Below, piece by piece: positions 2,223 to 46,830 of a stretch of DNA of 64,000 nucleotides. The position numbers and the translations under genes were made by a program. The stretch is from Apostichopus japonicus (lineage: Eukaryota > Echinodermata > Holothuroidea > Aspidochirotida > Stichopodidae). Under the pieces are notes generated by a model. That model searched no databases and was not told the origin of the DNA. It saw only the letters and a program-made list of their open reading frames with translations. The stretch lies in NCBI RefSeq assembly GCF_037975245.1, contig NC_092578.1, forward strand, positions 17,066,321 to 17,130,320, in the 5' to 3' direction. The number at the start of each line of letters is the position of its first letter. Positions within the stretch are counted from its first letter, which is position 1.

Positions 2223-2296
2223 TTAATATGATTCGAAGTTTATTTTTTCTCCGTTTAATTCTCAGCTTTCATTGTTTAGCATATCGGGAATTCAGC

Positions 2297-4948
2297 ATGG
2301 CTCGTATTCTCATCCGTTGTCTGGTCATTTGTCTTGCGGTTGTATTCAGTGAGGCCTGCTCAGGCTCGAGTTCAGGCTCGAGCTCAGGCTCGAGTTCAGG
2401 TTCGAGTTCAGGTTCGAGTAGAGATACTTCCATATATTCGAGTCCAGATTTGACAGAAGATTATATTTTTCAACACGGAATTAACGATGTTATTAATTTT
2501 GCACCACCACCTGAACCAACGGAACCACCCAAAGCACCCAATGCCCTTGGACCCTTGGAGTTCCCCATCGGTGACACCGGTGTTACGGTGACCCCCACGT
2601 ACGACCATGATACTGGTACAGTCGGTGTTCGATTCAGAATACGGTAAGCATATATATCGAATTGCATGTAAAAATGCACGGAGACTTATATCATGTATTA
2701 TTGCTAGCTTTTTATATTCTGACTCCTTCCATGGTTCGAACTTACGGATGGTGGTTAGGATTGTTACCTACAGAACCCAGCTCTCCCGGATGAACCGTTG
2801 ATCTTTCCCATCGGTGATAGTGGTACTACGATATTCCCCTACGCACGACCGTTAAGCTACATGGTGCTGTCGGCATTAAAGTCATGATGCCTTATATACA
2901 TTGGTATCACAAAAACCCAAATATACCGGAATACCGGTTCTTAAAATACCGTAGGCCTCACCTGCCCTGAATTCTGTCGCGAAACTGGTACACACGCTAT
3001 TACCCTTTATGAGTCGTTAACCTGAAAGATTTTGTAGTTTCCAAAGTGTATACTATCTTAATGCTGCCGTCAGAGGAAATGTCCACTGTTTTGACCTGAC
3101 CGGGTCTGAAATTCAGTTGGGCGATTGTTTTATCATCTTGTTTATTAATCTTTCATTAATTAATTTCTATCAGGGAAAAATATATCATTTGAATGTCATA
3201 ATGAAATAATAAAACATTCCGTTGCACTGTTAGAAGTCGACAGACTTGCAAACACTAAAAACGTCACAACTTTTCTAAACGATTTCAGAAGTGTCAAACA
3301 GAAATCTTTAAGCTTAATATACCATGAAGTGAACAGAAACAGTGACGTCATGTCGGAATATATTTCGCATTTCCTTCCCTTTCTTTCCTTTACCACCCAA
3401 ATAAAGGATAGAAAAACTCACTCCGACTTCTCTCATCCGATCACCCGACCACCCGACCACCCGACCACCCGACCACCCGACCACCCGACCACCCGACCAC
3501 CCGACCACCCGACCACCCGACCATTATCTAACTTTTGTCCTCATTTGTTTTGGTATTATATGACTTTGTTTTCTATTGAGACACATTTGTGACGTCACAT
3601 GGTACCTTCAAAAATGTGGTAGCGGTATCGGATACAACACTTTAATTCTATTAAAGTTTCTTGTCTTTTTTAAAACTTATTTTGCAGGTGGCGTCGTGAT
3701 GTTGACAGTCAAAAAGACTCAATCTTTAAGTCGATCGACATGAACGGTAATCAATACATCGAAATCTGTGAATGGGTGAAAGAGGGCGGATCAGCCAAAA
3801 ACTTCGTTGCGTTTCTCTCAGACGATGACACTGATGGTTAGTTTTAAAACATATTTTTATCATTATTTATTATTATTCTTTTTCTTTACTGTATTATTTG
3901 AAAGAGGTAATTACGATACATTCCGGCAACATGAACAAAATTAGGACTGAATGAATTAGGACGCCCTCTTTCTCTTCTTTCCACAAGAGTCTACCGTCAA
4001 AGTGATTTCATAATAACAAATGTTATTGAAAGCTTTAAGTTTTCTATATCTTAATCTGTTATATTGATTTATCGTGTTAAAACCTCGATATTTTTGAAAT
4101 TTTTGGCATATTTATCAAGTTTCTCTGTATTTTGAATTTCATCAAATACAACATGTTTTTGTTCTCCAAAAATATTAAATTCCTCTGTGAAAAAGCATTT
4201 GTCACTGACTTGCCGTAATGAGATCATTCATACTTCTGTTGCCAGATGCAATCACAAAATATCACGAAATTTATCATTTAAAAAAACAATGTCATATCTT
4301 CGGGATACAAAGTGCTACAATGATGACGTTACGACCTATAAAATACAAGAAAATTCCACCACGGGAATATCCTTGAACGAAAGTAAATTAAAAACAAAAC
4401 ACTTTTCTAATTTACCTCTTGGACTGTTCATTTCATTTCATAAAATCTGAGAAACATAGTTCTTATACAAGCCTAAGTATTATTGAATGGTAAATAGTAA
4501 AGGTAGGAACATAAGGGAATGGGAGATGGTGGTGGGGGGGGGCAGGGGATGTGTCGCTGCACCCTACTTTGAATGGACGAAGGCAGGGGTATATTGTTTC
4601 GACAACTGATTCACTCCAAGAAATTTTGAAATCATTCAGCTGGATTCATTTGCATTAGCAAAAGGATTAGCAAGAAACAATTGATCATTTTCTTTTCATC
4701 TCACGTCTGATGTCGAAATTTCGAGGACGTGAAAAAGCAACATGTCGATTAAAATATAAATATTCTTTCGGTTTCGAAAGAGTGACAATTTGGATATCAT
4801 ATTCAATGTCCCATCTGGTCTTTCACTTTGTGATAGATTCGTACGCCACTATGTATATTGATCATTTATTTATTGTTTTGTTTTCATGTGTTCATAACTA
4901 GGTGACGAGAAGATCTCTTGGCAAGAATTCCAAGCTGTGAATGTCTAA
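2297..4948 (+). CDS. Gene A: secreted EF-hand protein with Ser/Gly-rich variable segment
   Basis: Three coding exons, 2297-2643, 3688-3836 and 4902-4948, joined in phases 2 and 1, give 180 aa. Residues 1-20 are a signal peptide (MARILIRCLVICLAVVFSEA, then Cys). The variable segment (about 21-115) opens with a Ser/Gly run made of a 12-bp repeat, then an acidic stretch, a Pro-rich stretch and PLEFPIGDTGVTVTP. The constant end carries two EF-hand loops, DMNGNQYIEICE and DTDGDEKISWQE, the second completed across the intron. The ATG lies in AGCATGG, a good Kozak context, just after a TTTAG acceptor. An in-frame upstream ATG at 2186 comes from a MITE inside the intron and was not used. Likely an extracellular calcium-binding protein; its partner and function are unknown. 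Confidence 0.8.
2781..2889 (+). pseudogene. Relic of a variable-segment exon in gene A intron 2
   Basis: After a CCCAG acceptor-like site, the intron reads PLIFPIGDSGTTIFPYARP in one frame. It aligns with PLEFPIGDTGVTVTPTYDH in gene A's own variable exon (about 2550-2635), and base-level similarity runs on past TACGACC. In the frame set by the upstream phase-2 donor it hits a stop almost at once, so it is not an ordinary exon now. Equivalent sequence is kept in genes B (19915-19924 plus 21008-21105), C (28631-28740) and D (43237-43247 plus flanks of later insertions). Confidence 0.6.
3442..3523. repeat. 8-bp microsatellite (CCCGACCA)n in gene A intron 2
   Basis: About ten near-perfect copies of CCCGACCA. 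Genes B, C and D hold only one to three copies at the same place, so the expansion is private to gene A. It reads as a Pro/Thr/Asp/His repeat in one frame but lies in an intron. Confidence 0.9.
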
Positions 4949-5436
4949 ACAGCTGCTGGCAATGTCTTACTTACTCTTCTTGAACAACATGGATTGAAGT
5001 CTTGGCGTAGCGTACTTTTTATTATTATGTTTCCTTCCGTCGGATGGCACCGAGTCAGTATGTGTGACTCTATAGTCTCTGTTTACTATGAATTGGTATA
5101 AACACAGCCAACACGGATCGGAAACAATTACCCATGCTACTATCATCATAAAATTAGATTATATGGAAGGCGAGGGAGAAGGGAGGGAATGGGGGGGGGG
5201 GTAGGGTTTGGTTTATAGTGAGTCCAAAATGAATACATAACATTGACTACAGCAATAATTACTGAGTTTCAAACAGTTGAACAAAATTGTCACTCATAAT
5301 AGTGACAACGAATTTCCAATAGAAACGGAGGGTGGAGAGGGAAGGGGGTTGGAGGTTGAGGTGGATGGGGTGCCGAGTCACTACAGTATGTTGAATTTCT
5401 TTCATCATTGAAGCGCTCCCTTTATATCATTTTGGG

Positions 5437-5442
5437 AATAAA
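5437..5442 (+). terminator. Poly(A) signal, gene A
   Basis: AATAAA in the block TTGGGAATAAAGTAAGAT, about 490 bp past the stop. The block is conserved after genes A, B and C, and with a slightly changed tail after D. Confidence 0.7.
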
Positions 5443-5469
5443 GTAAGATACAGAAAGAATAATTGCTCT

Positions 5470-6680
5470 TTGTTTTCATTTTTGCATTGTTTTATATAGT
5501 CGCCCATTGTAGATATAGATGGTACCGCAACTTCGTTTCTAGGACAAGGGGTTGGACGGCGAGTCAACAAACTCCCCATTCCACTAACGTGATGACACTT
5601 TTATCACACAATATTGATATCAGTTTCAGTACAATAATATATTTATATTTATGATTATCAATATTACTATAACCGTATCATCTTAACACCTCAGTTGTCA
5701 ATCCGGAGAACATTTACTCTAGTGGAGACCCGAGGCGGTCTGGCTTCATGATTCCTCAGTTGCACTACGTATAGCTCCTATAGTAGGGTTCTTTATGTAT
5801 CTTTGCAACGCTGATCCATCGCACGGACTGTTGCAAGCGCCTAAGCTGTCAATGTTATCTTTATAAAGGAAAATCAAAGTTTCAGCTCAATGATGATATT
5901 ATTCACTCAGGTGATGCTTGCGTGTTACAATTTATCACCACATATACTAAAACCAGAATGCAAAATGCATTGAGGTTTTAATGACTTCAATGCACTAGAC
6001 TTAAAAATAAAACATCTGTAGAAATACCTACGAGGATAGCTTGGCTTCTGTTACATTATGGCTCCTCTACTAGGCATACCCTATACAGAAACTATAGGTG
6101 TGCGGGAGTCATGAGCATCTATACTGTACAGTACCTCACAACTACTTTGAACCGCTGCTCAATCAGAGCGGCGACTTCGTACAATTTCCAATTATCTGTC
6201 TTTCAACTTCATATTGGTGCGCGAATAATATCGTTATTACTCCATTTCATTGCCTAAATCAAAGCGATCTTTTACGCAATGATAATCTGAGGTTGTAAGA
6301 GCATCTCTCTTCCAAAATTCCTAGCAGTAACAACAGCAAACTTGTCTCAAAACTCCTTAAATTGTTCTATACTTTGCGAATTATGACTGATAGCCAGTAG
6401 GAAAATTGCCTTCAGAAATAACGAAGGAGATGTTTTGCCATGTTAAGTGTGTTGGTATTCTGCCTCGTATTCTTCACGCTTTTGTGTTAACGAACCCTAT
6501 TCTACCCAACCGTTGCTGACCTAGACAACATAAAATTGCTCACAGGCCTAGCCAGGTTTGTTCAAGTTGTCCTATAATCAGTAACGTGACGAAAGTCGAA
6601 CGTTACTTTTAAGGCCTAGCTATGCTGACACTGGTGGAAGAGACACACAAATTGAGATCAACAAACTAAGTCCGTTTGAT
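5470..6680. other. Intergenic spacer A-B, no gene seen
   Basis: The first 200 bp (TATATAG, then CGCCCATTGTAGATA and on) follow the poly(A) site of every gene in the family. The rest matches the spacer after gene C (31640-31910) and then the upstream region of gene D (35795-37190), so the spacer was duplicated along with the genes. No credible open frame. Confidence 0.6.
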
Positions 6681-6685
6681 CTTTG

Positions 6686-6765
6686 ACCGGATCGAACCAG
6701 TAATCCTTGGATCACGAGTCCGACGCCTTAGACAATTGGCCACCACGCTCTCACGCTCTCAGGTA
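6686..6765 (-). mobile_element. tRNA-derived SINE head fragment
   Basis: On the minus strand it reads GTGGTGGCCAATTGTCTAAGG and then GGTTCGATCC, which are A-box and B-box-like promoter parts of a tRNA-derived SINE. The core and tail are absent; the full-length relative is at 37913-38237. Confidence 0.55.
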
Positions 6766-6837
6766 ACCTTATTCTTGGTTGTTTTAGGATTGTTCTCATT
6801 TCAATATAAGTGATCAATTGCACTTGAGAACTTTTCA

Positions 6838-6848
6838 GGGAATTACCC
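6838..6848 (+). promoter_or_regulatory. kappaB-like element in a distal copy of the promoter block, gene B
   Basis: GGGAATTACCC inside a block (about 6810-6950) that repeats the proximal promoter, including AACTACTTCCGA.AAACAGATTAA. Gene D has the same distal copy at 38309. No splice donor like that of the 5' exon follows, so it may be only a duplicated promoter remnant. Confidence 0.35.
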
Positions 6849-7451
6849 TCACATATTCCCTAACTTGGTATTTATCATCAACTTTCTTGGCTCTCTTTTA
6901 AAACTACTTCCGAAAAAACAGATTAACATCAAAGCCGCCAAATCACAGGGGAAAAATTGAAAGAAAGAAAACAGTCAAATTGGTTCATATGTACCACCTC
7001 CGAATGTAACCCAGGACACCCTCCACCCATCCACACTTCCCCCTTGATGAAAGTTTCTTTCAAGTACCCATGCAAATTCCAGTTATTTCCATGTAGTAAA
7101 GAGTTAACGTTTCGTATCAATAGTAGTAAACAAGACTAGTGTGACGTAGTAGATACGTAACGCCAAAAAGGTTGTTTTGCTTTCTATAAAATGTTCATTC
7201 AATTTACCACTTAATCTTCATCGGTTTCCCAACCCATGCAGGTAGAATAAAACCGTGCTCAATCCTAGATCAAACCAAAGAGTGAAAAGAGAAAATGAAA
7301 TCTCGGCTGTTCAGTGGTTAAGACAAGCGTTTCCCTGACTACGTTTCGGTTTCATTATAAATGTGCGCATTAATATTTTCCAAACTTGACAAAACTACAA
7401 ATAAGAGGGTGTCTTACATAACTGAAAAAAAAATGTTCGACTCCACTGGAG

Positions 7452-8655: not shown

Positions 8656-8753
8656 TGATCGAAGAGCACATATGGTATAAGGTGTGATAATATACTGGGA
8701 TTTCTGCCAAGGTATAAAAAGCACAATATGTCTAGACTGAGCAAAACTTTTCA

Positions 8754-8764
8754 GGGAATTACCC
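8754..8764 (+). promoter_or_regulatory. kappaB-like element, gene B promoter
   Basis: GGGAATTACCC in the same context as in gene A. A TATAAAA (8713-8719) lies about 40 bp upstream in B but is not conserved in A or D, so its role is doubtful. Confidence 0.45.
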
Positions 8765-19365: not shown

Positions 19366-22300
19366 ATGGCTCGTATTATCATCTGTTGTCTGGTGATTTG
19401 TCTTGCGGTTTTGTTTAGTGAGGCCTGCCATCCATATGATAGTCATCCACAAGGTGTCCCTGGTCGCTTTGCAGCATACAGATTAAGCCATGATCAGGGA
19501 GTTGATACGGATGTCCCTGATCTCTCGACAGCACACAGATTAGAACATGATCTGGTAGTTGATCTGGATAGTCGTTTGGCAGAATTCAGAGTAGACCATG
19601 ATCTGGGATTTGATACGGATGTATTAGGTCGCTTGGAATCATACAGAGGAGTGCCCAGTCTGGGATTTGGTACGGAAACTCCCCGGCCCAAGTACTACCC
19701 TGAATCTGGTTTAATCGATCTTACCACCGATTTTACCATCACCAGAGGTAGGCCTACACCACCAGCTTCAGGATCATGGTAAGTATATCGAATTGCATGT
19801 AAAAATGCATGGAGACTGATATATCATGAATTATTGCGAGCTTTTCATGTTCTGACTCCTTCCATGGTTCGGACTTACGGATGGCGGTTAGGATTGTTAC
19901 CTACAGAACTCAGCTCTCCCGGATGCGAATTATTTTCCCCAGCGCGGTAAAGGCCAAGATTTGCATACCTCGCTCCCATTGGCTGGGGTCAGTATGCATA
20001 AGATTCATTACAATATCAACTAGCAGCAGCTGCACATAATCATTCATCACATAAAACTTTTCACAGGGCCACTTTGCTACACTCAGAATAGAAAACAGTC
20101 TAGCAGCAGAATGTACTCCTTTGAGTAGAGTTAATATATTTGTCGGTTTGTTATGCCACGGGTGTAGAGGGTCTGTGATCATGCATCGCACAACTCTGAT
20201 GCTGCAAACTTAAAGAAAGAGTTTGAAGATGATACAATATATCACCATATGATATAAACGTAAACCAATTTCTGTGTCCAATAACTATAATCCACAGTGG
20301 CAGTGGTACTACTAACATGACTAAACACTAGGCCTATATCCTTCGTATTATATTATCTGAAAACCGTGCCAAAGGGTCATAATAATATTAACCGTGTCAA
20401 AGGGTCATAATTTTGAAAATCAAATCAATGTCTATGCTCAAAAATAAGAGTCTATAAGTTTAAAATTTAAAAGCAACTCAAGTAAATAGTCAACCAGAAA
20501 CTATCCAGCTGTCCAATGTTTTTATGCAGTTTTGAAGCAAGCAAACGCCTGGTACTAAACTGCGTACATATCCGCACCGCAGTACTCTGTACAGCAAGTT
20601 CCACCATCACTTCGAAGCTTCACCCTTGTCAAAACTAACTAATTCAATTTATTGGCTTTTCAGTTTTGGATCATAAACCTAAGTAATCCTTACTTTCAAA
20701 GAAAGACAGTCATCTTCAATGAGACGTGTACTCAGTCCATGGTCGCAGTTGTGTTTTACGACCTTATGGATGTGCAAGGATGTATACACAAACAAATCCG
20801 CGCAAAATCAAAGAACAAACACTATATGTGTATGTGAGAATCATGATACATTGCGTGCAAGTGTATGTTCATGTACATACAATACACACACGCGTAAATA
20901 GCGTAAGCAAGAACTTCCCAATTCAGCATCAACATTGCAAGCCCTATAGCCAATGAGAAGCGAGGTATGCAAATAGTGGCCTTTATCGCGCTGGAAAAAC
21001 AAATCGCCTCCCGGATACACCGTTGATCTTTCTCACCGGTGATAGTGGGCACTACGATATTCCCCTACGCACGACCGTTAAGCCACATTAAAGTCATGAT
21101 GCCGTATACGTTGGTATCAACGAAAACCCAATTATTGGAATACCAATATCGTAGGCCTATTACCTTGAAGTCTGTCGCAAAACTGGTGCACACGATATTA
21201 TGAGTCGCAAACCTCAAAGCTTTTCATGCAGTTTCCAAAGTGTATAATATGTTATTGCTGCCGTCAGAGGAGATGCATACTGTTTTGACCTGACCGGGTC
21301 TGAAATTCAGTTGGTGGAATGTTTTATCATCTTATTTATTAATCTTTAATTTCTTAATTTCTATCAGGGAAAAAATATATCATTTGAATGTCATAATGAA
21401 ATTATAAAACATTCCGTTGCATTGAGATAAGCCGACAGACTTTCAAACACTAGGACACGTCACATCTTTTCTAAAAGGTTGCAGAAGTGTCAAACAGAAA
21501 TCTTAAAACTGAATAAACCATGAAGTGACCGGAAACAGTGACGTCATATAGGTTTTTTTTTCGCATTTCCGTCTCTTTCTTTGCTTTATCACTCAAATGA
21601 AGGAGAGTAAAAACTCACTCCGACTTCTCTCATCCGACCGCTAGACCACCCGACCACCTGTCCACCCCCAAAAGAATAATAATATTAAGAAAAATTAATA
21701 CATGGGGACATTTCAAGCACATGCATAGAAGCTGTGTCTCACCCTTCAGCCCTAAGAAAATCTTCCCTTTTAGAATAACAACTTTCATTCGATTTACATA
21801 TTCAGTGGAACGTTGAGCAAATACTTCTAGTCAACGTTTCGTCTATTTTTCCCCCATTTGTTTTGGTACGTATTACATGCCTTTGTTTTCTTTTGAGACA
21901 AATTTTTGATGTCACAGGTTACATTCAAAGACGCAGTAGCGGGTAAAATTACCTTAATTTGATTAAAGTTTGGTGTCTTTTTTCAAACTTATTTTGCAGG
22001 TGGTTTCGCGACCGCCGTGACGTTGACAGTCAAAAAGACTCAATCTTTAAGATGATTGACATGAATGGTAATCAATACATCGAAATCTGTGAATGGGTGA
22101 AAGAGGGCGGATCAGCCCTAAACTTCGTTGCGTTTCTCTCAGACGATGACACTGATGGTTAGTTATAAAATGTATTTTTATCATTATTTATTATTATTCC
22201 TTTTCTTTTATATATTATTTGAAAGAGGTAATTACGATACATTCCGGCGACTTGAACAAAATTAGGACTGAATGAATTAGGACGCCCTCTTTCTCTTCTT

Positions 22301-23287
22301 TCCATGAGAGGCTACCGTCAAAGTGATGTCATAATTACAAATGATATTGAAAGCTCTAAATTTTCTATCTTAATCTGTTAAATTGATTTATCTTGTTGAA
22401 ACCTGATAATTTTGAAATTTTTGGCATATATATCAAGTTTCTCTGTAATTTGAATTTCATCAAATACAAAATGTTTTTGTGTTTCAAAAATATTAAATTC
22501 CTCTGTGAAAAAGCATTTGTCACTGACTTGCCGTGATGAGATCATTCATTCTTCTGTTGCCCGATGCAATCACAAAATATCACGAAATTTAATAATTAAA
22601 AAAAAACACAGTCATATCTTCGTGATACAAAGTGCTATAATGATGACGTTACGACCTATAAAATACAAGAAAATTCCACCACGGGAATATCCTTGAACGA
22701 TAGTAAATTAAAAACAAAACATTTTTCTAATTTACCTCTTGGACTGTTCATTTCATTTCATAAAATCTGAGAAACAAAGTTCTTATACAAGCCTAAGTAT
22801 TATTGAATGGTAAATAGTAAAGGTAGGAACAGAAGGGGAGGGGAAGATTGTGTGGGCAGGGGGGGGGGCGTCGCTACACCCATCTTTGAATGGGCTAAGG
22901 CAGGGGTATATTTTTTCGACAACTGATATACTCCACGAAAGTTTTAAATCATTTAGCTGGATTCATTTGCATTAGCAAAAGGATTACCAATAAACAGTAG
23001 ATCATTTTCTTTTCATATTTTTCATCTTACGTCTGATTTCGAAATTTCGAGAACGTGAAAAAGCAACATGTCGATTAAAATATAAATATTCCTGCAGTTT
23101 AGAAAGAGTAGTAATTTGGATATAATAATAAATGTCCCATCTGGCCTGACACGTTTTGATAGCTTCGTATGCCACTGTAGTTTGGTCATTACTACTGGCA
23201 ACATTAATTTATTGTTTTGCTTTCATGTTTTCTCAACTAGGTGACGAGAAGATTTCTTGGCAAGAATTCCAAGCTGTGAATGTCTAA
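19366..23287 (+). CDS. Gene B: secreted EF-hand protein with internally repeated variable segment
   Basis: Exons 19366-19778, 22000-22157 and 23241-23287 (phases 2 and 1) give 205 aa. The signal peptide is MARIIICCLVICLAVLFSEA, then Cys. The variable segment contains four imperfect units of about 17-19 residues, each with an R-L/V-x-x-D/H-D pattern and most ending in D-T-D-V (AYRLSHDQGVDTDV, AHRLEHDLVVDLD, EFRVDHDLGFDTDV, SYRGVPSLGFGTET), so it grew by internal duplication. The constant part has the loops DMNGNQYIEICE and DTDGDEKISWQE. Exon 2 is nine bases longer than in A or D, adding FRDR-like basic residues at the junction. The acceptor TTTAG at 19348 and the Kozak context equal those of gene A. 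Intron 2 holds a 1.08-kb TIR element. Function unknown; extracellular calcium binding is inferred. Confidence 0.8.
19925..21007. mobile_element. TIR element with 9-bp TSD (Mutator-like signature), gene B intron 2
   Basis: Flanked by CTCCCGGAT at 19916-19924 and 21008-21016. The ends are long imperfect inverted repeats running from GCGA.TT.TTTTCC.AGCGCG through GGTATGCAAAT and CCAATG. The same element sits at the identical site in gene D. A 9-bp duplication with long TIRs suggests a MULE; no transposase is present. Confidence 0.75.
21008..21105 (+). pseudogene. Relic variable-exon sequence in gene B intron 2, split by the TIR element
   Basis: Continues the relic described for gene A: CACCGGTGATAGTGG and CCCCTACGCACGACC are retained, with small deletions. 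The insertion at its CTCCCGGAT separates it from its upstream acceptor-like CTCAG. Confidence 0.55.
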
Positions 23288-23819: not shown

Positions 23820-24591
23820 GTAAGATACAGAAAGAATAACTGCTCTTTGTTTTCATTTTTGCATTGTTTTATATAGTCGCCCATTGTAGATACATTTGGT
23901 ACCGCAACTTAGTTTCTAGGACAAGGGGTTGGACGGCAACTCAACAAACCCCATTCCACTAACTTGAGGGCAATTTTATGAATAGATAATGATATTCAGG
24001 TTCAGTAATATAATATGTTTATGATTATCAATATTACCATTACAATCTAAATAACTCAGTTGCATAATTCGGAGACCATTTACGCTATTGGCGACATATG
24101 TGGCATGTAATATCATATGACTACATGATTCTTCAGTGGTTCTACGCTAGCTCTTATAGTTTGGTGCTTCACTTATCATTGCAACGCTGATCCATTGCAT
24201 GTTGCAAGCGCTAAGGTGTCAGTGTTATCTTTAAATATTATTATCAAAATTCTAGTCTAGATAGAGGACAATGATCGAAGCTGAGGCAGACTAGAAAATG
24301 AGCAACTGTCGATCGTTTGTGACTCATAAACAGAGTTAATTTTAGGTGGATGGTTGAAGAGAAGTTGGAAGGGGTGTAATGTATTATTGTATGTGAGGAT
24401 CATCCATAGACATATTTACTTTATTTTGGTTAATATCAACGTGACGAAGTGGGTAGGCGTAAGGTAGACGGGTGGGGGGGGGGGGGCGAGAGTGGTGGTT
24501 GTGACTAGAATAAAAGACGGTCTTCATCATTGATGTAGTCATTCTAGTAATGTAACAACGTTTTATGAAGTTATATTATGAACATATAGGC

Positions 24592-26063: not shown

Positions 26064-26679
26064 GTAAGTCGATTCATGTCTTTCTCTTTACTTTCGATTT
26101 CTTTTGGAGAAATAATCCTAAATATTTAGACTTTAAACTTACCATACAGAATAGAAATACCTTCCCTAACAAGACGATAATAATGCAAACTATAATTAAG
26201 GATTTGCTTAAGCTCAAATCAACAAGAATATATAGTGATTGATTACACTTTACACTTCAATGTATACGTTTCTTCTGGGGAGTCAGGTTTTATGTGTTAT
26301 ATAATGTAGCACGAATTATCGATAATTTCTACCTTTTTCTCAAATATGTATTGTAAGGTGTAAGTCAAGGTGATTATTTTGAAATAATGATTGTCATGTT
26401 TAAGGAATTAATGTACCAGCCCAAGTTAGGAGATATCCAGCAAGGGAAGGGATATCCTAGCTCCATGGGGTAACGAATAATTTAATCGTTTTTCTTCCAT
26501 AAGCAAATCCGATAGTCATTTCATTTATTTTGGTTTTCTCCATAAACATACAATGTAGGTTGGATATGTATACTTTTATACAATAAATATAATGTTAAAT
26601 GTGGTCTAAGAAAACCATAATTGGCTTAGCGAGTTGATCCACTCCCCCAAAAGAAAAAAAAAAAAAATAACATCAATCG

Positions 26680-27232
26680 ATTAATACACATGATCAATGG
26701 ATTAATACACAAGATCAATGGATTAATACACAAGATCAATGGATTAATACACAAGATCAATGGATTAATACACAAGATCAATATATTAATGCACATGATC
26801 AATCAATTAATACACAAGATCAATGGATTAATACACAAGATCAATGGATTAATACACAAGATCAATGGATTAATACACAAGATCAATGGATTAATACACA
26901 AGATCAATGGATTAATACACAAGATCAATAAATTAATACACAAAATCAATGGATTAATACACAAGATCAATAAATTAATACACATGATCAATGGATTAAT
27001 ACACAAGATCAATGGATTAATACACAAGATCAATATATTAATGCACATGATCAATCGATTAATACACAAGATCAATGGATTAATACACAAGATCAATGGA
27101 TTAATACACAAGATCAATGGATTAATACACAAGATCAATAAATTAATACACAAGATCAATGGATTAATACACAAGATCAATAAATTAATACACAAGATCA
27201 ATGGATTAATACACAAGATCAAATGGATTTGA
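26680..27232. repeat. 21-bp minisatellite, gene C intron 1
   Basis: About 26 copies of ATGGATTAATACACAAGATCA with few variants. Because 21 is a multiple of 3 and the unit lacks stops in some frames, it gives long frames on both strands (INGLIHK and LILCINP repeats) that are not genes. A short trace of the unit survives in gene B at 16860-16885. Confidence 0.95.
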
Positions 27233-28227: not shown

Positions 28228-30885
28228 ATGGCTCGTATTATCATCTGTTGTCTGGTCATTTGTCTTGCGGTTGTATTTTGTGAGGCCTCCAGGACTCGCC
28301 GTTGCACTTGCCTTTGCCCCGGGGAACCAGGACCATTAACACCAATAACACTAACACCACCAACACCAACACCACGACCCTATTTCCCTCTTCCCCGTCG
28401 GTACGATTGGGATTGGTTTCCGCATTACCACGATGAACCTGTGCACCCTCGTTTTGACCATGAGTATGGTTTACGTGTTGATGATTTCCCAGGACGGTAA
28501 GTATAACGAATATCATGTGAAAATACACGGAGACTGTTAATCATGAATTATTGCTAGCTATTGATGTTCTGACTCCTTCCACGGTTCGGCTTTCGGGATG
28601 GTGGTTAGGATTGTTACCGTACAGAACCCAGCTCTCCCGGATCATACCGTTGATCTTTCCCATCGGTGATAGTGGTATATTCCAATACGTACGACCGTTA
28701 AGCTACATGGTGCTGTCGAAATGAAAGTCATGATTCCGATACGTTGGTATGACGAAAACCCAAATATTGTAATACCGGTTCTTAAAATACCGGAGGCCTA
28801 TTACCATGTACATCACCCACCCCGAAGTCTGTCGCGAAACTGGTACACACACTATTTACCCAAATAAAGGGTCGCAAACCTCAAAGATTTTGTAGTTTCC
28901 AAAGTGTAATATGTTATTGCTGCCGTCAGAGGAGGTACACCGTTTTGACCTGACCGGGTCTGAAATTCAGTTGGGGGATTGTTTTATCATCTTGTTTTAT
29001 TAATCTTTCATTTCTTAATTTCTGTCAGAGAAAAATATATCATTTGAATGTCATAATGAAATAATAAAACATTCCGTTGCATAAAGATAAGTCGACAGAC
29101 TTTCAAACACTATAAAACGTCCAAAATAGTCTAAAAGGTACAGAAGTGCACCATGAAGTGGCCGGGAACACTGACGTCATGTAGGAATATTCTTTTCGCA
29201 TTTCCTTCCCTTTCTTTCCTTTCTATCACTCAAATAAAGGAGAGTAAAAACTCACGCCCACTTCTCTTTTCCGACCGCCAGACCACCCGACCACCCGACC
29301 ATCTGTCCACTCCCAAAAGAATTATAATATTTAGAAAAATTAATACATGGGGACATTTCAAACACATATAAGCTGTGTCTCACTCCTCAGTTCTTATAAA
29401 ATCTACCATTTTCGAATAATAACTTTAGTTCGATTTACATATTCAGTGGAACGCTGTGCAAATATTTCTATATAACGTTTTATCTAACCCTTTTTCCTCA
29501 TTTGTTTCGGTATGTATTACATGCCTTTATATTATTTATTGACACACTTGAATGTGACTGCACAGGTTACATTCAAAGAAGCAGTAGCGGTATCGGATAA
29601 AATTACCTTAATTTGATTAAAGTTTGGTGTCTTTTTTCAAACTTATTTTGCAGGCTGCGTGGCCGCCGTGACGTTGACAGTCTAAAAGAGTCAATCTTTA
29701 AATTGATTGACATGAATGGTAATAAGTACATCGAAATCTGTGAATGGGTGGAAGAGGGCGGATCAGCCATAAACTTCGTTGCGTTTCTCTCAGACGATGA
29801 CACTAATGGTTAGTTTAAAGACATATTTTTATCTTTATTTATTATTATTCTTTTTCTTTAATGTATTATATGAAAGAGGTAATTACGATACATTCCGGCG
29901 ACATGAACAAAATTAGGACTGAATGAATTAGGACGCCCTCTTTATCTTCTTTTCACGAGAGGCTACCTTCAAAGTGATGTCATAATAAAAAATGATATTG
30001 AAAGCTCTAAATTTTCTATCTTAATCTGTTAAATTGATTTATCTTGTTGAAACCTGATACTTTTGAAATTTTTGGCATATTTATCAAGTTTCACTGTATT
30101 TTGAATTTCATAAAATGCAACATGTTTTTTCTTCTTCAAAAATAATAATTTCCTCTGTGGAAAAGCATTTGTCACTGACCTGCCGTGATGAGATCATTCA
30201 TTCTTCTGTTGCCAGATGAAAACACAAAATATCTTCGTGATACAAAGTGCTATAATAATGCGGTTACGACCTATAAAATACAAGAAAATTCCACCACGGA
30301 AATATCCCTTGAACGAAAGTAAATTAAAAACAAAACACTTTTCTAATTTACCTCTTGGACTGTTCATTTCATTTCATAAAATCTGAGAAACATAGTTCTT
30401 ATACAAGCCTAAGTATTATTGAATGGTAAATAGTAAAGGTAGGAACAGAAGGGAAGGGGAAGATGGTGGTTGGGGGCAAGGGGGGCGTCGCTTCACCCTA
30501 CTTTGAATGGGCTAAGGCAGTGGTATATTTTTCGACAACTGGTCACTTCACGAAAGTTTTAAATCATTCAGCTGGACCCCTTTGCATTAACAAAAGGATT
30601 ACCAATAAACAATAGATCATTTTCTGTTCATATTATTCATCTCACGTCTGATGTCGAAATTTCGAGAACGTGAAAAAGCAACATGTCGATTAAAATATAA
30701 ATATTCTTTCAGTTTAGAAAGAGTAGCAATTTGGATATAACATTCAATGTCCCATCTGGTTTTTCACTTTGTGATAGCTTCGTCACTACTGTATATTGAT
30801 CATTACTTTATTGTTTTGTTTTCATGTTTCATAACTAGGTGACGAGAAGATCTCTTGGCAAGAATTCCAAGCTGTGAATGTCTAA
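28228..30885 (+). CDS. Gene C: secreted EF-hand protein with Cys- and Pro-rich variable segment
   Basis: Exons 28228-28496, 29654-29808 and 30839-30885 (phases 2 and 1) give 156 aa. The signal peptide is MARIIICCLVICLAVVFCEA. The usual Cys after cleavage is replaced by Ser, but RRCTCLCPGEPG brings three cysteines a few residues later. There follow a Pro/Thr run (PLTPITLTPPTPTPRP) and an aromatic and His-rich tail (YDWDWFPHYHDEP). The EF loops are DMNGNKYIEICE and DTNGDEKISWQE; position 3 of loop 2 is Asn instead of Asp, still a permitted ligand. Loop 1 has Lys for Gln at position 6. Intron 2 lacks the TIR element of B and D, as in A. Function unknown. Confidence 0.8.
28631..28740 (+). pseudogene. 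Relic variable-exon sequence in gene C intron 2
   Basis: CCCATCGGTGATAGTGG and ACGTACGACCGTTAAGC are kept, as in gene A. There is an internal deletion (TACTACG lost), and the frame is closed. Confidence 0.55.
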
Positions 30886-31916: not shown

Positions 31917-34900
31917 TATGGAACGCGAAAAGGGCAACCGTATTTCGTTGCCTAAACTAAGTTTGTTTCGTTGCCTAAACTAAGTTTGTTGCTGTCTAAA
32001 CTAAAGCTGTTGCTGCTAGTTTACCATGTTGCTGTTGTTCGTTGATGTCTAAACTTACGTTGATGTCTAAAGTCACGTTGACGACTAAACGCGCCTTAAT
32101 GTCTAAACTCACGTTGATTTATAAACCTTACGGTTGATGTCTAAACTCACGTTGATGTCTAAAACTTTCGTTGCTAAGTTAACTTACGGTTGATGTCTAA
32201 ACTCACGTTGATGTCTACACTTTCGTTGCTAAAGTTCCGTTGTGAACACATTGTGAACGAACATCATTCTTTCTTTTCAAACAAGAAAACCAAGAGGTTT
32301 TGAGATTCCTTGGCATCTACAGTAAATATTACTGTAGGTTCATTGTGTACACTTGGTTCCGACCTTTTATGAATATTAATGTAGCATCAACACAAATGTT
32401 GTTCCTTGCTATCAGCTCAAGTTTGATGAACAAATTGATATTTTAAAGAATTTGCTTTAAGCTCTACCACTCATTAATATTCATGCCCCCTCATTAATAG
32501 TATTGGGGTAGAATTCCGACTTGCAGCTGGAAGGTTAGGGGGTTCGACTCCTGGCCGGGTCATACTGAAGATTTGTTGAAAATCACTCTAAGCCCCGCCC
32601 TCTCATTAATATTCATGATATTAGCACCAAAATAAATAGGGATCGTCTACTCATGATGGGTAACCTATGTACCAAGAATGAGATCAATCCACCTTGGGAT
32701 TGCTGAGAAAACCTAATTTCAAGCTTTTTTGCGAAAAACAACACTTAGCCTCGCCCCTCATGAATAATAATGAGATTGGACAAACTGTCACCATATTTAT
32801 ATAGAGGACTTTCCTCTTGTACCACCAAACCAAGTTCCATGAAAATTTAACTTACGGTTGCGAAGATATTGACATTTGTTGAAAATCACTCTAAGCCCCG
32901 CCCACTCATTAATATTCATGATATTAGCACCAAAATAAATAGGGATCGTCTACTCATGATGGGTAACCTATGTACCAAGAATGAGATCAATCCACCTTGG
33001 GATTGCTGAGAAAACCTAATTTCAAGCTTTTTTGCGAAAAACAACACTTAGCCTCGCCCCTCATGAATAATAATGAGATTGGACAAACTGTCACCATATT
33101 CATATAGAGGACTTTCCTCTTGTACCACCAAACCAAGTTCCATGAAAATTTAACTTACGGTTGCGAAGATATTGACATTTGTTGAAAATCACTCTAAGCC
33201 CCGCCCACTCATTAATATTCATGATATTAGCACCAAAATAAATAGGGATCGTCTACTCATGATGGGTAACCTGTGTACCAAGAATGAGATCAATCTACCT
33301 TGGGATTGCTGAGAAAACCTAATTTCAAGCTTGGCGTCACACACACACAGACACACACACACACATACGCACACACACACACACATACACACATACACAC
33401 GCAGTCATGACCGCATAGATTCCTACGGCTACCGCCAAGGAATCAAAAAATTATAACAATCAACCGCAAGTTGCTTCCGTGCAGTGCTAACAACATATCT
33501 ATTACAGAGATTTTCATGCTAAATACAGCCAATGTTTTCTCAAATTTCCCGAGATTTGTTTGGTTAATAGTCCCTTATCCATTGTCTGCAAACATGCTTG
33601 CATCTTCAGTGCTCAATGAACGCAAAGTATGATGGTTTAACTAAGTAACGCGAAAAGGGGGGGGGGGGTAATCGTTAATGTCATGCCGGATTTGTAGCAA
33701 CAGCCATGTAAATATCCTTAACAACATGATTTGTCGAACAAAATCACGTTGTTCACGATATTTACATGATAGTAGATACAACTCCGAGGACGTTATTTAC
33801 ATTTATATTGTTAATGTCATATTTGAATAATTGTTTTATCACAGAAAGTTATGAGTTGAGACAATCTATGAATTTTGCGGGAAGCTACCACAACATCTCT
33901 GATACTGAAAAGGACTTTAAATCTCACAGTATGTTATGTTCTTTCCCTTTTGAGAGTTGATAATGTAAAATGTGCATTTATACCACAGTTATTTCTTCGT
34001 TGCAAACTTGCGTAAAGTTTTGCGGTCCCTTTGACCACGTGCTTCAAGTCATGATTCTGGTGCAACACTAATTCGTGTGCATAAACTACTGCAGTCATAC
34101 ATCGTCAAAAGTAGTCATTGAAGTTTCGACATTGCGTAAAAATGTTATTTAAATACTATAATTTTCGTGGAGTTGGTTGTTTCCAAATACTGAAAAGCAT
34201 CCAGGGTAAATGTTGGATCAGTTGCTCTATGGTTGGATGTAGTCTGCGCTTCGTGAGTAACAAGAGGGGCACAGTATTGAAGTACGTAGGCAATATGACT
34301 CACAGAACTAGTTTACTAAACCCGCCAAGCAAGTTCATTCGTAACACCAATCCAGTTCGGAGTTTCAATTTGCGAAAGGGATTGTGTTGTAAATGGAATA
34401 TACACAAACCTCGCTCAGCATTGTTAAGAATTTTAGACCAAAAAACCCGCTAACATGTTATGAAAGAAACGAATCATCCAAGATACACTCGAGTTTTGAC
34501 TAAGGCTATGTGTTGTAGGTAAGGTGATATGATCTTTTCTCCACAAATTTTCAGGATATGCGCATGTGCAGTTGAAACTCCGAAGTTTGAACAGGCCTAA
34601 TACAAATTGCGTGGAATTTAGCGAGATATGCACACTACATTTGCGGGGATATTTGAAGAGTTGGGGTAGCTGGTGAAATCGCTGCAGGTCAAAGCATCGA
34701 GGTACTATATACGGAGTTGGAGAGGAGGAAAGAGTGGCAGGGCAGGCGAAATGAAGGTCGGACGGCCGCCCTTGTAAAACAGCGAAGCTAAGGCACTGGA
34801 TGGCATCCGCCATATATATATTGTGTAGAGCATTCACAAAGTACAGGCAGTGATAAGATCGCATCTTCTCAACTATAAACACTAGTAAAAGTATAGGTCA

Positions 34901-37330: not shown

Positions 37331-37339
37331 GGCCATATT

Positions 37340-40314: not shown

Positions 40315-41712
40315 AACATCAATCGATAAATACGCAAGACCAATGGATTAATACACAAGATCAATGGATCAATACACAAGATCAATAAATTAATACACAA
40401 GATCAATGGATCAATACACAAGATCAATGGATCAATACACAAGATCAATGGATAAATACACAAGATCAATAAATTAATACACAAGATCAATGGATCAATA
40501 CACAAGATCAATGGATCAATACACAAGATCAATGGATTAATACACAAGATCAATGGATCAATACACAAGATCAATAAATTAATACACAAGATCAATGGAT
40601 CAATACACAAGATCAATGGATCAATACACAAGATCAATGGATAAATACACAAGATCAATAAATTAATACACAAGATCAATGGATCAATACACAAGATCAA
40701 TGGATCAATACACAAGATCAATGGATTAATACACAAGATCAATCAATTAATACAAAAGATCAATCAATTAATACACAAGATCAATCAATTAATACACAAG
40801 ATCAATCAATTAATACACAAGATCAATGGATCAATACACAAGATCAATGGATCAATACACAAGATCAATGGATAAATACACAAGATCAATAAATTAATAC
40901 ACAAGATCAATGGATCAATACACAAGATCAATGGATCAATACACAAGATCAATGGATAAATACACAAGATCAATAAATTAATACACAAGATCAATGGATC
41001 AATACACAAGATCAATGGATCAATACACAAGATCAATGGATTAATACACAAGATCAATGGATCAATACACAAGATCAATGGATTAACACACAAGATCAAT
41101 GGATCAATACACAAGATCAATGGATTAATACACAAGATCAATGGATCAATACACAAGATCAATAAATTAATACACAAGATCAATGGATCAATACACAAGA
41201 TCAATGGATCAATACACAAGATCAATGGATTAATACACAAGATCAATCAATTAATACAAAAGATCAATCAATTAATACACAAGATCAATCAATTAATACA
41301 CAAGATCAATCAATTAATACACAAGATCAATGGATCAATACACAAGATCAATGGATCAATACACAAGATCAATGGATAAATACACAAGATCAATAAATTA
41401 ATACACAAGATCAATGGATCAATACACAAGATCAATGGATCAATACACAAGATCAATGGATAAATACACAAGATCAATAAATTAATACACAAGATCAATG
41501 GATCAATACACAAGATCAATGGATCAATACACAAGATCAATGGATTAATACACAAGATCAATGGATCAATACACAAGATCAATGGATTAACACACAAGAT
41601 CAATGGATCAATACACAAGATCAATGGATTAATACACAAGATCAATGGATCAATACACAAGATCAATGGATTAATACACAAGATCAATGGATCAATACAC
41701 AAGATCAATGGA
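40315..41712. repeat. 21-bp minisatellite with 504-bp higher-order period, gene D intron 1
   Basis: About 66 copies of the same 21-bp unit as in gene C, with variant units (GGATCAA, GGATAAA, AAATTAA, CAATTAA). A marker variant, AATACAAAAGATC, appears at about 40751 and again 504 bp later (24 units), and the variant order around it repeats. Three minus-strand frames of 132-155 codons are products of the array. Confidence 0.95.
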
Positions 41713-42099
41713 TTATATTATGATATTCAATAGCTATTTGAATAATAAGTACTAAGATTCTTTTTAAACGAATGCATGTGAAGCATGAATTTTAATTGTA
41801 ATAAGTATTAGCTCAATAACGTAAGCTCTGTATACTAATACTAGTTCTAGGACGTGGTTTGGCATGTTACCAGTCTGCCTAGTATTATGATTATGTATAT
41901 ATTTATTGTATGTAAAATAACATATGAAACAGGAGGATTATGATTATTAATAGAACGGTAAGCAAAGAGTAGCAATGTGAACATTAATAAGGTCAGCAAA
42001 TTTAAGGAGATTTAAAGAAGCATATTAATTAGCTGGTGTGATCATTGAAGGAAGCAAAAGAAATTGGTCTCTTTTAGAGCTTTTAGAAGTTTCTTGATA

Positions 42100-42350
42100 T
42101 TAGAATACATTGTACCGGACCAAACTTTCACACAATAAGTGAGATGGGGATGAACAAGAGTAAATTATAAAGAACGAAGATCTTGTCTTGCTTGAAATAG
42201 AGAGACTCCCAACAAATCGTGCAATCTTGGTAGAGATTGAAATAATATAGTTATTCCACATCAAGCCAGAGTCAAATAATAACCCCAAGAAACATTATAT
42301 AACCTACTCTTTTAAGATATTTTCCGTCCATTCATATGTCAAATATCACT
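42100..42350 (-). mobile_element. LINE reverse-transcriptase relic, gene D intron 1
   Basis: Minus-strand DSGLMWNNYIISISTKIARF is orthologous to the relics in B and C. Confidence 0.6.
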
Positions 42351-42883
42351 TTATTAAAGCTGCTCTTATTAGTTTGAAGAAAGAAAAACACAATATCGCT
42401 AGTCTTATTCTCACATTAAGGTAAAGTTTATTAGCAGAGAACCAAGCCTAGAATTGTGTACGTTGCTTACAAATTGTGTCTTTCATACAATAACATTATA
42501 GTGAAGAAACATCATAGTTTTTATTTCATAAAAGGAAAGCAATGGTAGGAACCAATTTGTGAACATATCTTACTCACATTTTTCTTTAGTTTATGATTTC
42601 TACGTAATAAGAGAATGCATCCGACCGATGGGGACATTTAACTAAATCATTAACAATCATTACGAGCTTTTCTCATAACGTTCATGGGGTTAAAAAATCC
42701 ATCTGAGTATATGTATACGTTAATTTGTTGTCAATTTGCTGATTTATAGTGAGTAATAGGGTTGGTTTGGTACAATTCGTCATTTGTTAGCGACGAAAAT
42801 AATTATGTTAAAATGATCCGAAGTTTATTTCTTTCTCCGTTTCATTCTCTGCTTTCAATTGTTTAGCATATCGGGAATTCAGC

Positions 42884-45800
42884 ATGGCTCGTATTATCAT
42901 CTGTTGTCTGGTCATTTGTCTTGCGGTTGTATTTAGTGAGGCCTGCCCGGGAACAAGTTCACAGATCTCATATTCGAGACCAGGTTTGAGTCCAGTTCAG
43001 TTTGAAATTTCAGAACAAGGTGGCTCTGATCCCAAGTCATTATATTTCGACATTGAAACTGGTGTACTCGAACTTAGAGATACACCATCAGTTCCAGAAC
43101 GGTAAGTATATCGAATAGCATGTAAAAATGCATGGAGACTGATATATCATGAATTATTGCTAGCTTTTCATGTTCTGACTCCTTCCATGGTTCGGACTTA
43201 CGGATGGTGGTTAGGATTGTTACCTACAAAACCCAGCTCTCCCGGATGCGAATTTTTTCCCCCAGCGCGGTAAAGGCCAAGATTTGCATACCTCGCTCCC
43301 ATTGGCTGGGGTCAGTATGCTTAAGCTTCATTGCAATATCAACTAGCAGCAGTTGCACAGAATCGCTCATCACATACTTCTTTTCACAAGGCCACTTTGC
43401 TTACACTCAGAATAGAAAATAGTCTAGCAGCAGACTGTACTCGTTTGAGTAGAGTTAATATATTTGTCGGTTTGTTATGCCACTGGTGTAGAGGGTCTGT
43501 GATTATGCATCGCACAACTCTGATGCTGCAAATTTAAAGAAGTTTAATCAAACCGAAACAGTTTGAAGATGATACAATATATCACTATATCATGTAATAT
43601 CAACGTAAACCAATTTCTGTGTCCAATAACTATAATCCACAGTGGCAGTGGTACTACTAACATGACTAAACACTAGGCCTATATCTTTCGTATTATATTA
43701 TCTGAAAACCGTGCCAAAGGGTCATAATAATATTAACCGTGTTAAAAGGTCATAATTTTGAAAATCAAATCAATGTCTATGCTCAAAAATAAGAGTCTAT
43801 CAGTTTCAAATTTAAAAGCAACTCAAGTAAATAGTCAACCAGAAACTGTCCAGCTGACCAATGTTTTTATGCAGTTTTGAAGCAAGCAAACGCCTGGTAC
43901 TAAACTGCGTACATTGCCATCACAGTACTCTCACGGTACAGCAAGTTCCACCATCACTTCGAAGCTTCACCCTTGTCAAAACTAACTTATTCAATTTATT
44001 GGCTTTTCAGTTTTGGATCATAAACCTAAGTAACCCTTACTTTCATCTTCAATGAGACGTGTACTCAGTGCATGGTCGCAGTTGTGTTTTACGACCTTAT
44101 GGATGTACACAAACAAATCCGCTCAAAAGCAACGAACAAACACCAAATGTGTATGAGAGAATCATGATACATTGCGTGCACGTGTATGTTCATGTACATA
44201 CAATACACACACGCGTAAATAGCGAAAGCAAGAACTTCCCAATTCAGCATCAACATTGCAAGCCCTAGCCAATGAGAAGCGAGGTATGCAAATAGTGGCC
44301 TTTACCGCGCTGAAAAAAAAAATCGCCTCCCGGATACACCGTTAATCTTTCCAATCTTTAAATGTTCACGGCGCAAAAGAAAAAGAAAAAGAAAAAAAAG
44401 AAGGACTAAGAAAAAAATGGCAAAAAATAAAGAACCAAAATGAATCTGGGTGGTATATTTTTCAATAATTTTCAATAATGATGACGGCAAGTAGGCTAAA
44501 TGGTCTTGTTTTCAAGCTCGGGAAGTGCCATTTCCTGCAATCTGGAAGGCATTTTTCAAAATTTTCCCCAGTACGCTACGCGCCAATCATGGTGGCGCGT
44601 AGCGTTGTTTGACGTACCAGACGTCCCCCGATAGATGGCCACACTCTGATCTGCCGTACCAATCCAAAATAGCTTCCGACGCCCCTGTGATAGTGGTACT
44701 ACGATATTCCCCTACGCACGACCGTTAAGCCACATGGTGCTTTCGAAATTAAAGTCATGATTCCGTATATGTTGGTATCAACGAAAACCAAAATATTGGA
44801 ATACCGGTTCTTAAAATACCGTAGGCTTATTACCTTGAAGTATGTCGCAAAATTGGTACACACGATATAATGAGTCGCAAACCTCAAAGATTTTCATGCA
44901 GTTTCCAAAGTGTATAATATCTTATTGCTGCCGTCAGAGGAGATGCATACTGTTTTGACCTGACCGGGTCTGAAAAATATATCTTTTGAATGTCATAATG
45001 AAATAATAAAACATTCCGTTGCATTGAGATAAGTCGACAGACTTTCAAACACTAAGACACGTCACAACTTTTCTAAAAGGTTTCAGAAGTGTCAAACCGA
45101 AATCTTAAAACTTAATATACCATGAAGTAACCGGAAACAGTGACGTCATGTAGGATTTTTTTTTCGCATTTCCTTCTCTTTCTTTCCTTTATCACGCAAA
45201 TAAAGGAGAGTAAAAACTCACGCCGAGTTCTCTCATCCGACCGCTAGACCACGCGACCACCTGTCCACCCCAAAAGAATAATAATATTAAGAAAAATTAA
45301 TACATGGGGACATTTCAAACTCATAGCAGCTGTGTCTCATCCTTCAGCACTTATAAAAACTACCATTTTCGAATAACAACTTTCATTCGATTTACATATT
45401 CAGTGGATCGTTGTGAAAATACTTCTAGCCAACGATTTAATTTTTTCCTTTTGTTTTGGTATGCATTACATGTCTTTGTTTTCTATTGAGACAAATTTGT
45501 GACGTCACAGGTTACATTCAAAGACTCAGTAGCGGAATCGGATATATTACTTTAATTTTGGTGTCTTTTTTAAATCTTATTTTGCAGGCATGGTCGCGAC
45601 GTTGACAGTCAAAAAAACTCAATCTTTAAGTCGATTGACATGAACGGTAATCAATACATCGAAATCTGTGAATGGGTGGAAGAGGGCGGATCAGCCATAA
45701 ACTTCGTTGCGTTTCTCTCAGACGATGACACTGATGGTTAGTTATAAAATGTATTTCTTTAATTGTTATTATTTAATATTATTTTTATTTTATTTAACAT

Positions 45801-46830
45801 ATTTTTGAAATAGGTAATTACGATAAATTCCGACGACATGAACCAAACCTCGGATATTGGGACGCCCTCTTTCTTTTCTTTCCATCAGAGGCTACCTTCA
45901 AAGTGATGTCGTAAGAACAAATAATATTGAAAGCTTTAATCTTTCTGTACCTTAATCTGTTATATTGATTAATCTTGTTAAAACCTCGATATTTTTGAAA
46001 TTTTTTGCATATTTAGCAAGTTTCTCTGTATATTGAATTTCATCCAATACAACATGTTTTTTCTTCTTCAAAATTATGAATTTCCTCTGGAAAAGCATTT
46101 GTCACTGACTTGCCGTGGATGAGATCATTCATTCTTCTGTTGCCAGATGCAAACACAAAATATCACGAAATTTTATAATTAAAAAAAAAAACAATGTCAT
46201 ATCTTCGTGATACAAAGTGTTATAATGATGCCGTTACGACCAAGGTAATACAGGAGAAAATCCCACCACGGGAATATCCTTGAACGAAAGTAAATTAAAA
46301 ACAAAACACTTTTCTAATTTACCTCTTGGACTGTTCATTTCATTTCATAAAATCTGAGAAACATAGTTCTTATACAAGCCTAAGTATTATTGAATGGTAA
46401 ATAGTAAAGGTAGGAACAGAAGGGAAGGGGAAGATGGTGGTGGGGGGCAAGGGGGCGTCGCTTCACCCTACTTTGAATGGGCTAAGGCCCAATGGGAAAG
46501 TTTTAAATCATTCAGCTGGATCAATTTGCATTAGCAAAAGGATTAGCAAGAAACAATTGATCATTTTCTTTTCATATTTTTCATCTCACGTCTGATGTCG
46601 AAATTTCGAGAACGTGAAAAAGCAACATGTCGATTAAAATATAAATATTCTTTCAGTTTAGAAAGAGTAGCAATTTGGATATAACATTCAATGTCCCATC
46701 TGGTTTTTCACTTTGTGATAGCTTCGTCACCACTGTATATTGATCATTAATTGATTGTTTTGTTTTCATGTTTTCATAACTAGGTGACGAGAAGATCTCT
46801 TGGCAAGAATTCCAAGCTGTGAAGGTCTAA
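42884..46830 (+). CDS. Gene D: secreted EF-hand protein, shortest variable segment
   Basis: Exons 42884-43101, 45588-45736 and 46784-46830 (phases 2 and 1) give 137 aa. Signal peptide MARIIICCLVICLAVVFSEA then Cys. The variable segment of about 52 residues is Ser- and acid-rich (PGTSSQISYSRPGLSPVQFE, then SEQGGSDPKSLYFDIETGVL). EF loops DMNGNQYIEICE and DTDGDEKISWQE are intact. The C-terminus is QAVKV where the other three have QAVNV. Exon 2 begins RHGRDVDS, an indel-type change against RWRRDVDS in A. Intron 2 is lengthened by the 9-bp-TSD element and a second repeat insertion. Function unknown. Confidence 0.8.
43248..44326. mobile_element. TIR element with 9-bp TSD, gene D intron 2
   Basis: CTCCCGGAT at 43239-43247 and 44327-44335. 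Same element, site and orientation as 19925-21007 in gene B, so one insertion was inherited by both through duplication. Confidence 0.75.
44357..44688. mobile_element. Repeat insertion inside the gene D relic exon
   Basis: It interrupts CTTTCC...GATAGTGGTACTACG of the relic. The right end GACGCCCCTG is hAT-like, but no matching left end or duplication was found. An internal GCTCGGGAAGTGCC and the TACGCTACGCGCCAA...CATGGTGGCG area resemble the nested element at 18340-19062. Confidence 0.45.

Follow-up and report, generated by a model that had tools for sequence, protein, structure and literature searches.

Orpin is reportedly a clade specific to Ambulacraria, to go by the title of Soto-Acaba et al. 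2022. The extracts of Su et al. 2022 used here (PMC9501386) describe Orpin as a secreted calcium-binding protein linked to sea cucumber gut regeneration, reported only from echinoderms and one hemichordate, with homologues that resemble each other mainly in the EF-hand domain. They give Aj-Orpin as a protein of 164 residues with EF loops at 117-128 and 147-158, an isoelectric point (pI) of 4.31 and cleavage at SEA-CS, induced after evisceration and stained in the regenerating gut, and they call Orpin double-copied in Apostichopus japonicus (PMC9501386). No reports of tandem Orpin copies or of variable Orpin segments were found in a literature search that did not cover Soto-Acaba et al. 2022. 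We analysed a stretch of 64,000 nt of the A. japonicus genome (C18:17066321-17130320, NC_092578.1; hereafter the window), which holds four intact three-exon genes, g1 to g4, each with a near-constant signal peptide, a variable segment of 52-117 residues and a constant EF-hand pair. These genes are read here as Orpin paralogues, a probable sister branch in the Orpin array. We consider it probable that in this Orpin cluster the variable segment is under diversifying change, aided by repeat growth and segment exchange, with flanks that are partly homogenised.

The combination of conserved non-coding DNA with a diversified secreted coding part is already known in other families. Extracts on the Hessian fly SSSGP-1 genes describe a tandem cluster in which signal peptide, untranslated regions (UTRs) and intron are conserved and the mature coding part is diversified, but these encode salivary proteins of a plant parasite, and the extracts mention neither a constant C-terminal calcium module nor a decayed segment copy (PMC2955719). 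In the viperid three-finger toxins, according to extracts on ASSET, introns are likewise highly similar and exon segments switch, in proteins of an unrelated fold and with a venom role (PMC2474615). Both are parallels in the way they work, not kin; kinship is with Orpin. The toxin- or immune-effector-like design proposed by a sequence-only reading of this DNA is apt as a likeness to fast-evolving secreted families, but there is no sign of toxin function, and a Pfam scan of the window proteins gave no domain support for a toxin family. SPARC/osteonectin proteins are secreted and combine an acidic variable N-terminal part with a C-terminal EF-hand pair, as do the window proteins. Osteonectin is named as the closest cluster to Orpin in the extracts of PMC9501386; no follistatin-like or SPARC calcium-binding Pfam match was found up to E 1 in any of the four window proteins, and SPARC membership was rejected. 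EF-hand_1 is above its Pfam cut-off in all four, and g1 also has sub-threshold low-complexity matches (New_glue, 16 bits against 31; Serglycin, 13 against 30). Compared with solved structures, g4 had 17 weak matches up to E 1, EF-hand-type and other, the best at E 0.021.

The sequence-only reading had proposed a tandem family with a fixed leader, a fast middle and a fixed EF-hand pair, and the gene models bear this out (Table 1). In all four, exon 1 encodes the leader of 20 codons and the variable segment, exon 2 encodes EF-hand 1, and the remainder of EF-hand 2 comes from exon 3, of 47 nt; all introns have GT-AG borders, with phase 2 at the end of exon 1. The segments are of the lengths it had given (95, 117, 69 and 52 residues in g1 to g4). 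EF loops carry usual residues at loop positions 1, 3, 5 and 12, and these are kept in both loops of each window gene. By base shuffling, the open frames of the variable segments have chances of 0.0086 (g1), 0.0018 (g2), 0.073 (g3) and 0.036 (g4), and of about 4e-8 jointly, and both other frames of each segment contain stops; the possibility of annotation error raised by the same reading sits poorly with four open frames in phase. Small and acidic, with a signal peptide and one EF-hand pair, the predicted products should be secreted calcium binders.

Evidence for diversifying change comes from comparing the segment with the DNA around it, over all six pairs of g1 to g4. Identity is 90-98% in the leader (60 nt), 88-96% in the first 140 nt and 81-92% in the last 120 nt of intron 1, 92-97% in the last 135 nt of exon 2, 91-93% in intron 2 and 87-93% in the 300 nt past the stop. 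Before the ATG, a wider alignment of 300 nt has g2 differing by 29-34% from g3 and g4. The variable segments fail protein local alignment in all six pairs (shuffle p 0.053-0.67). The earlier statement that they share no recognisable similarity goes too far at the DNA level for g1-g4 (z 7.0) and g2-g4 (z 5.1), but not for the remaining four pairs (z 0.0-3.1), and the g1 segment is homologous to that of ordinary Orpin. Intron, UTR and leader are therefore more conserved than the mature coding part, with exceptions in g1. The EF part, with a synonymous divergence (dS) of 0.09-0.16 and omega of 0.21-0.53 in every pair, shows purifying selection, and the coding segment has changed far more than much of its own introns.

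In each of the four genes, a decayed copy of the ordinary Orpin segment lies in intron 1, beginning about 67-74 nt past the donor site and thus about 70 nt downstream of the scrambled coding segment. This relic is 89-96% identical in all six pairs over about 85 nt, and when the same pairs are tested the coding segment gives z 0.8-6.0 against z 37-56 for the relic. Translation over its length in g1 and in g3 showed broken frames in both. The close agreement of the relics beside scrambled coding segments makes relaxed constraint alone an inadequate explanation. Simulated random change with 16% substitution and indels gave 0/150 scores as low as those observed in each of 12 runs, as did 10 of 12 runs with 30% substitution. 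Lying next to a fast coding segment, the relic offers an internal standard by which selection and drift could be told apart directly in population data.

The family assignment rests on two further genes of the same plan, found by scanning 100 kb on each side of the window: O1 (C18:17048368) and O2 (C18:17059704), about 18 and 7 kb to its left. Their leaders were recovered with the g1 leader as query (E 2e-3 and 2e-4); to the right, no leader or EF match within 100 kb was better than E 0.06. The published Aj-Orpin primers F1, R1 and RT-R match O1 and O2 exactly, F2 is exact in O2 with three mismatches in O1, and R2 has one mismatch in O1 and two in O2; the window genes have no exact match to F1 or R1. 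In O1 and O2, F1 maps to the variable exon and R1 to the EF exon, so the published cDNA agrees with the exon plan. In these two genes the EF loops begin at positions 94 and 124, which become the published 117 and 147 when 23 residues are added, the upstream extension implied by the second methionine published for Aj-Orpin; 141 of 164 residues is 86%, against a coverage of 85% reported for PIK49419.1. Given these primer matches and loop positions, we read the window genes as Orpin paralogues, and the idea that this layout belongs to no family yet described falls, the layout being that of Orpin. The Orpin array also reaches beyond the window on the left, with O1 and O2.

There are thus six intact genes in one Orpin cluster, two ordinary (O1, O2) and four diverged (g1 to g4). 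With the Orpin and Aj-Orpin of the PMC9501386 extracts they have in common an SEA-type cleavage site, acidity, a C-terminal EF-hand pair and its loop spacing, and a place in the same array; they differ in that the extracts report a double copy against six intact genes here, four of them with strongly diverged segments. The putative cleavage site keeps SEA in four of six genes and SEA-CS in two (O2, g1), the others being SEA-CH (g2), SEA-CP (g4), CEA-S (g3) and SQA-CS (O1). All six proteins have EF loops 30 residues apart, six residues past loop 2 and a pI of 4.11-5.05. In five of the six mature proteins the segment carries a single Cys, at the mature N-terminus, and EF-hand 1 another; the exception is g3, with three in the segment and one in EF-hand 1. 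A genome-wide search with leader DNA returned only the four window genes, a lower bound, as the diverged O1 and O2 leaders were also missed. The genome scan with PF13499 (150 of 194 candidates scored) listed 55 places, none inside the window.

Primer RT-F has three mismatches in 24 to the assembly in the variable segment of both O1 and O2 (C18:17048566-17048589 and 17059902-17059925), changing two residues, which hints that the ordinary Orpin segment varies between individuals or between copies. Inverted copies of a g-type exon 3 with flanks lie on the minus strand at C18:17053624-17053668 and 17064790-17064834 (78-86% identity); no leader or EF-1 exon in matching orientation was found near them, and our reading is that they are further remnants of the Orpin array. 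About 1 kb after g2 lies a fragment resembling the O1/O2 3' UTR, which may be left over from an Orpin gene since lost or may give rise to cross-amplification; the exact match there of the published primer F2 for rapid amplification of cDNA ends (RACE) may matter for assays using F2.

The ordinary Orpin variable segment has 55 residues, and both the g1 segment and the intron relics derive from it. The g1 segment is clearly Orpin-like, its distal part being identical to O2 at 93/118 DNA positions (79%). With the O2 segment as query, the relics of g1 to g4 score z 47, 13, 31 and 17, with 72-80% identity over the matched part, and the coding segments score z 37 in g1 (clear) and 3.3, 3.4 and 0.2 in g2, g3 and g4. 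The segments of g2, g3 and g4 retain at most a faint motif of it, a weak in-frame Y/F-D/Y-x-D/E/G-x-G near the end of all segments. We found no source for segments captured from elsewhere, in the window or in 100 kb on either side, by blastn or tblastn, and this origin was rejected: to E 0.01, blastn with the segments as queries gave only self-matches, the internal repeats of g2 and g1 with O1/O2, and tblastn additionally gave Ser-rich low-complexity matches for g1 and one marginal match for g3 (E 0.010).

Segments seem to have been exchanged as well as rewritten. Between g1 and O2, synonymous differences number 6.5/24.5 (27%) in the distal variable segment against 22.3/35.5 (63%) in the EF part (p about 0.01); the leader dS was not used, since the leaders, unequal in length by one codon, had been aligned ungapped. 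The relic differs from O2 at 20% of all sites in g1 and at 20-28% across g1 to g4, each gene staying under the EF synonymous figure (p 1.5e-6 to 1.4e-4), and outside the relic the introns of the g and O genes do not align (z 0-3.3). Divergence that is lower in segment and relic than at synonymous EF sites suggests that the segment moved between O-type and g-type genes after their split. Among the g genes, informative sites cluster from exon 2 to the 3' flank (45 sites, 18 runs, p 0.0005), a pattern indicative of gene conversion. Coding repeats have grown in three of the four segments: g1 has a 12-nt unit, g2 a 57-nt unit in four copies, and g3 three short repeats that overlap, whereas g4 has none. 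An insertion of 1083 nt in g2 and 1079 nt in g4 splits the relic, and the insertion region of g2 is 91% identical to the g4 copy over a longer match, 19755-21032. This common insertion marks g2 and g4 as close kin, or else a spread of the insertion by conversion; despite it, their coding segments are without protein similarity (p 0.23).

Several observations weigh against diversifying change as the explanation. Positive selection on the segment is what we infer from the contrast with the relic and not from a codon model, and simulations with 30% substitution did reach the observed scores for g1-g4 (5/150) and g2-g4 (1/150). The O1 and O2 segments differ by one synonymous and one other change in 165 nt. 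The test of the faint motif was marginal (p 0.08, 0.24 and 0.02; combined 0.016), on a motif picked post hoc. The flanks of g1 are less constant than those of the other genes, and in the wider alignment g1 differs from g2-g4 by 39-41% over the final 350 nt of intron 1. Over 300 nt upstream of the ATG it differs by 48-50%, only the nearest 75 nt or so matching the other genes. EF-hand_7 reaches 26.6-27.2 bits against a Pfam cut-off of 30 in all four proteins, and that the four window genes are used is predicted from sequence only. Finally, much of the same pattern would result from old segments combined with gene conversion of the flanks.

This last account is the strongest remaining rival, although we think it somewhat unlikely. 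Here the segments are old and changed at an ordinary pace, and recurrent conversion homogenised leader, introns and EF exons without crossing the segments once homology there was lost; no positive selection is needed. The mosaic signal in the flanks and the union of O-type and g-type pieces in one gene are in agreement with it, and concerted homogenisation is one of two forces named for the Hessian fly SSSGP genes in the extracts of PMC2955719. However, the relic, about 70 nt from the coding segment, must then fall within the converted tract in all four genes, and g2 and g4 have a relic insertion in common and yet dissimilar segments of 117 and 52 residues. Both points count against this account without being decisive.

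If diversifying change is preferred, the EF-hand pair would be the constant working module, and the segment between the cleavage site and the pair would be the part that diversifies, as copies acquire substitutions there, expand short coding repeats and exchange segments with their paralogues. Leader, much of the introns and EF exons would be kept alike by fairly recent duplication and gene conversion. The calcium of sea water and coelomic fluid may keep the EF pair folded, with the segment projecting from it, and the mature N-terminal Cys, present in five of six genes, could possibly pair with the single EF-hand Cys and close the segment as a loop. On such a scaffold the segment might set the extracellular partner of the calcium-stabilised module during tissue repair. 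We advance tentatively a wider proposal, that a regeneration family in a free-living animal is evolving in the manner of toxins or effectors, with segments copied between paralogues, an older one decayed in intron 1 and positive selection rewriting the active one, to give a repertoire of partners on one calcium-binding scaffold. Should diversifying selection act on the Orpin paralogues, the biology of repair or of wound surfaces may be part of some conflict or matching process; a literature search found no paper on conflict or matching in the repair biology of Orpin paralogues.

A tandem array encoding a signal peptide and a hypervariable segment on a fixed scaffold also recalls the sea urchin 185/333 genes, a comparison case for an immune repertoire, and the cluster could serve immune or other recognition in place of regeneration. 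This alternative concerns function only, its odds overlapping those of the others, and we regard it as unlikely, since the extracts of PMC9501386 have Aj-Orpin induced after evisceration and staining the regenerating gut. More doubtful still is that the segment is an unconstrained, disordered spacer without function, changed by repeat slippage and drift: Gly, Pro, Ser and Thr make up 35-52% of the four segments and short direct repeats occur in three of them, but drift should not outrun the adjacent decayed copy, unless that copy was homogenised, and all four frames are open and in phase. That the variable stretches are non-coding artefacts of annotation is barely credible, for although the window models were built on genomic sequence, the frames and phase and the agreement of the published Aj-Orpin cDNA with the O1/O2 exon plan (F1 and R1 places, loop positions) argue against it.

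Table 1. Orpin-type genes and related features, in window coordinates
Feature	Position	Strand	Remarks
g1 whole gene	2297-4948	+	180 aa
g1 exon 1: leader plus 95-aa variable segment, in which an Orpin-like distal part follows Ser/Gly repeats	2297..2643	+	
g1 intron 1 decayed Orpin-segment copy, frames broken	2718..2891	+	127/159 = 80% to O2, z 47; stops in three frames
g1 exon 2, EF-hand 1	3688..3836	+	
g1 exon 3, remainder of EF-hand 2 and stop	4902..4948	+	
g2 whole gene	19366-23287	+	205 aa
g2 exon 1: leader plus variable segment of 117 aa, more than half made up by a 57-nt unit in four copies	19366..19778	+	
g2 intron 1 Orpin-segment relic, split by insertion	19846..19924	+	67/87 = 77% to O2, z 13; place from alignment offsets
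Transposon-like insertion in g2 relic, common to g4	19925..21007	.	inverted ends, CTCCCGGAT on both sides
g2 exon 2, EF-hand 1	22000..22157	+	
g2 exon 3	23241..23287	+	
O1/O2 3' UTR-like fragment	24265..24375	+	91-93% identity; exact match to primer F2
g3 whole gene	28228-30885	+	156 aa
g3 exon 1: leader and 69-aa Cys/Pro-rich variable segment	28228..28496	+	
g3 intron 1 Orpin-segment relic	28564..28737	+	117/162 = 72% to O2, z 31
g3 exon 2, EF-hand 1	29654..29808	+	
g3 exon 3	30839..30885	+	
g4 whole gene	42884-46830	+	137 aa
g4 exon 1: leader and 52-aa acidic variable segment	42884..43101	+	
g4 intron 1 Orpin-segment relic, split by g2-type insertion	43169..43247	+	71/91 = 78% to O2, z 17
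Transposon-like insertion in g4 relic	43248..44326	.	
g4 exon 2, EF-hand 1	45588..45736	+	
g4 exon 3	46784..46830	+	
Fifth EF-hand-1 exon, broken, O1/O2 exon 2-like	49051..49222	+	72% to O1/O2 over 180 nt

The broken fifth EF-hand-1 exon has a stop codon after the EF loop, and scans with leader and exon 3 sequences found no match near it. Elsewhere in the window, 10 of the 47 listed open reading frames (ORFs) were compared with Pfam, and nine had no match at E 0.001. The other one, which lies on a 21-nt satellite, matched 18 families, some of them above their cut-offs (DUF948 at 69.5 bits against 37.2), which we judged to be artefacts of a seven-residue period. The satellite, of consensus ATCAATGGATTAATACACAAG, forms arrays at 26672-27229 (26.5 copies) and 40318-41713 (66.5 copies; consensus one base different), each about 1 kb upstream of a gene (g3 and g4, respectively), and the ORFs that span it seem to be by-products of a repeat unit whose length is divisible by three. 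Direct repeats built on words such as GATAAACTCGGTTTATCG are clustered at 373-785, and at 32571-33332 a 303-nt unit stands in direct repeat, with 2.5 copies and 99% matches, and looks very recent.

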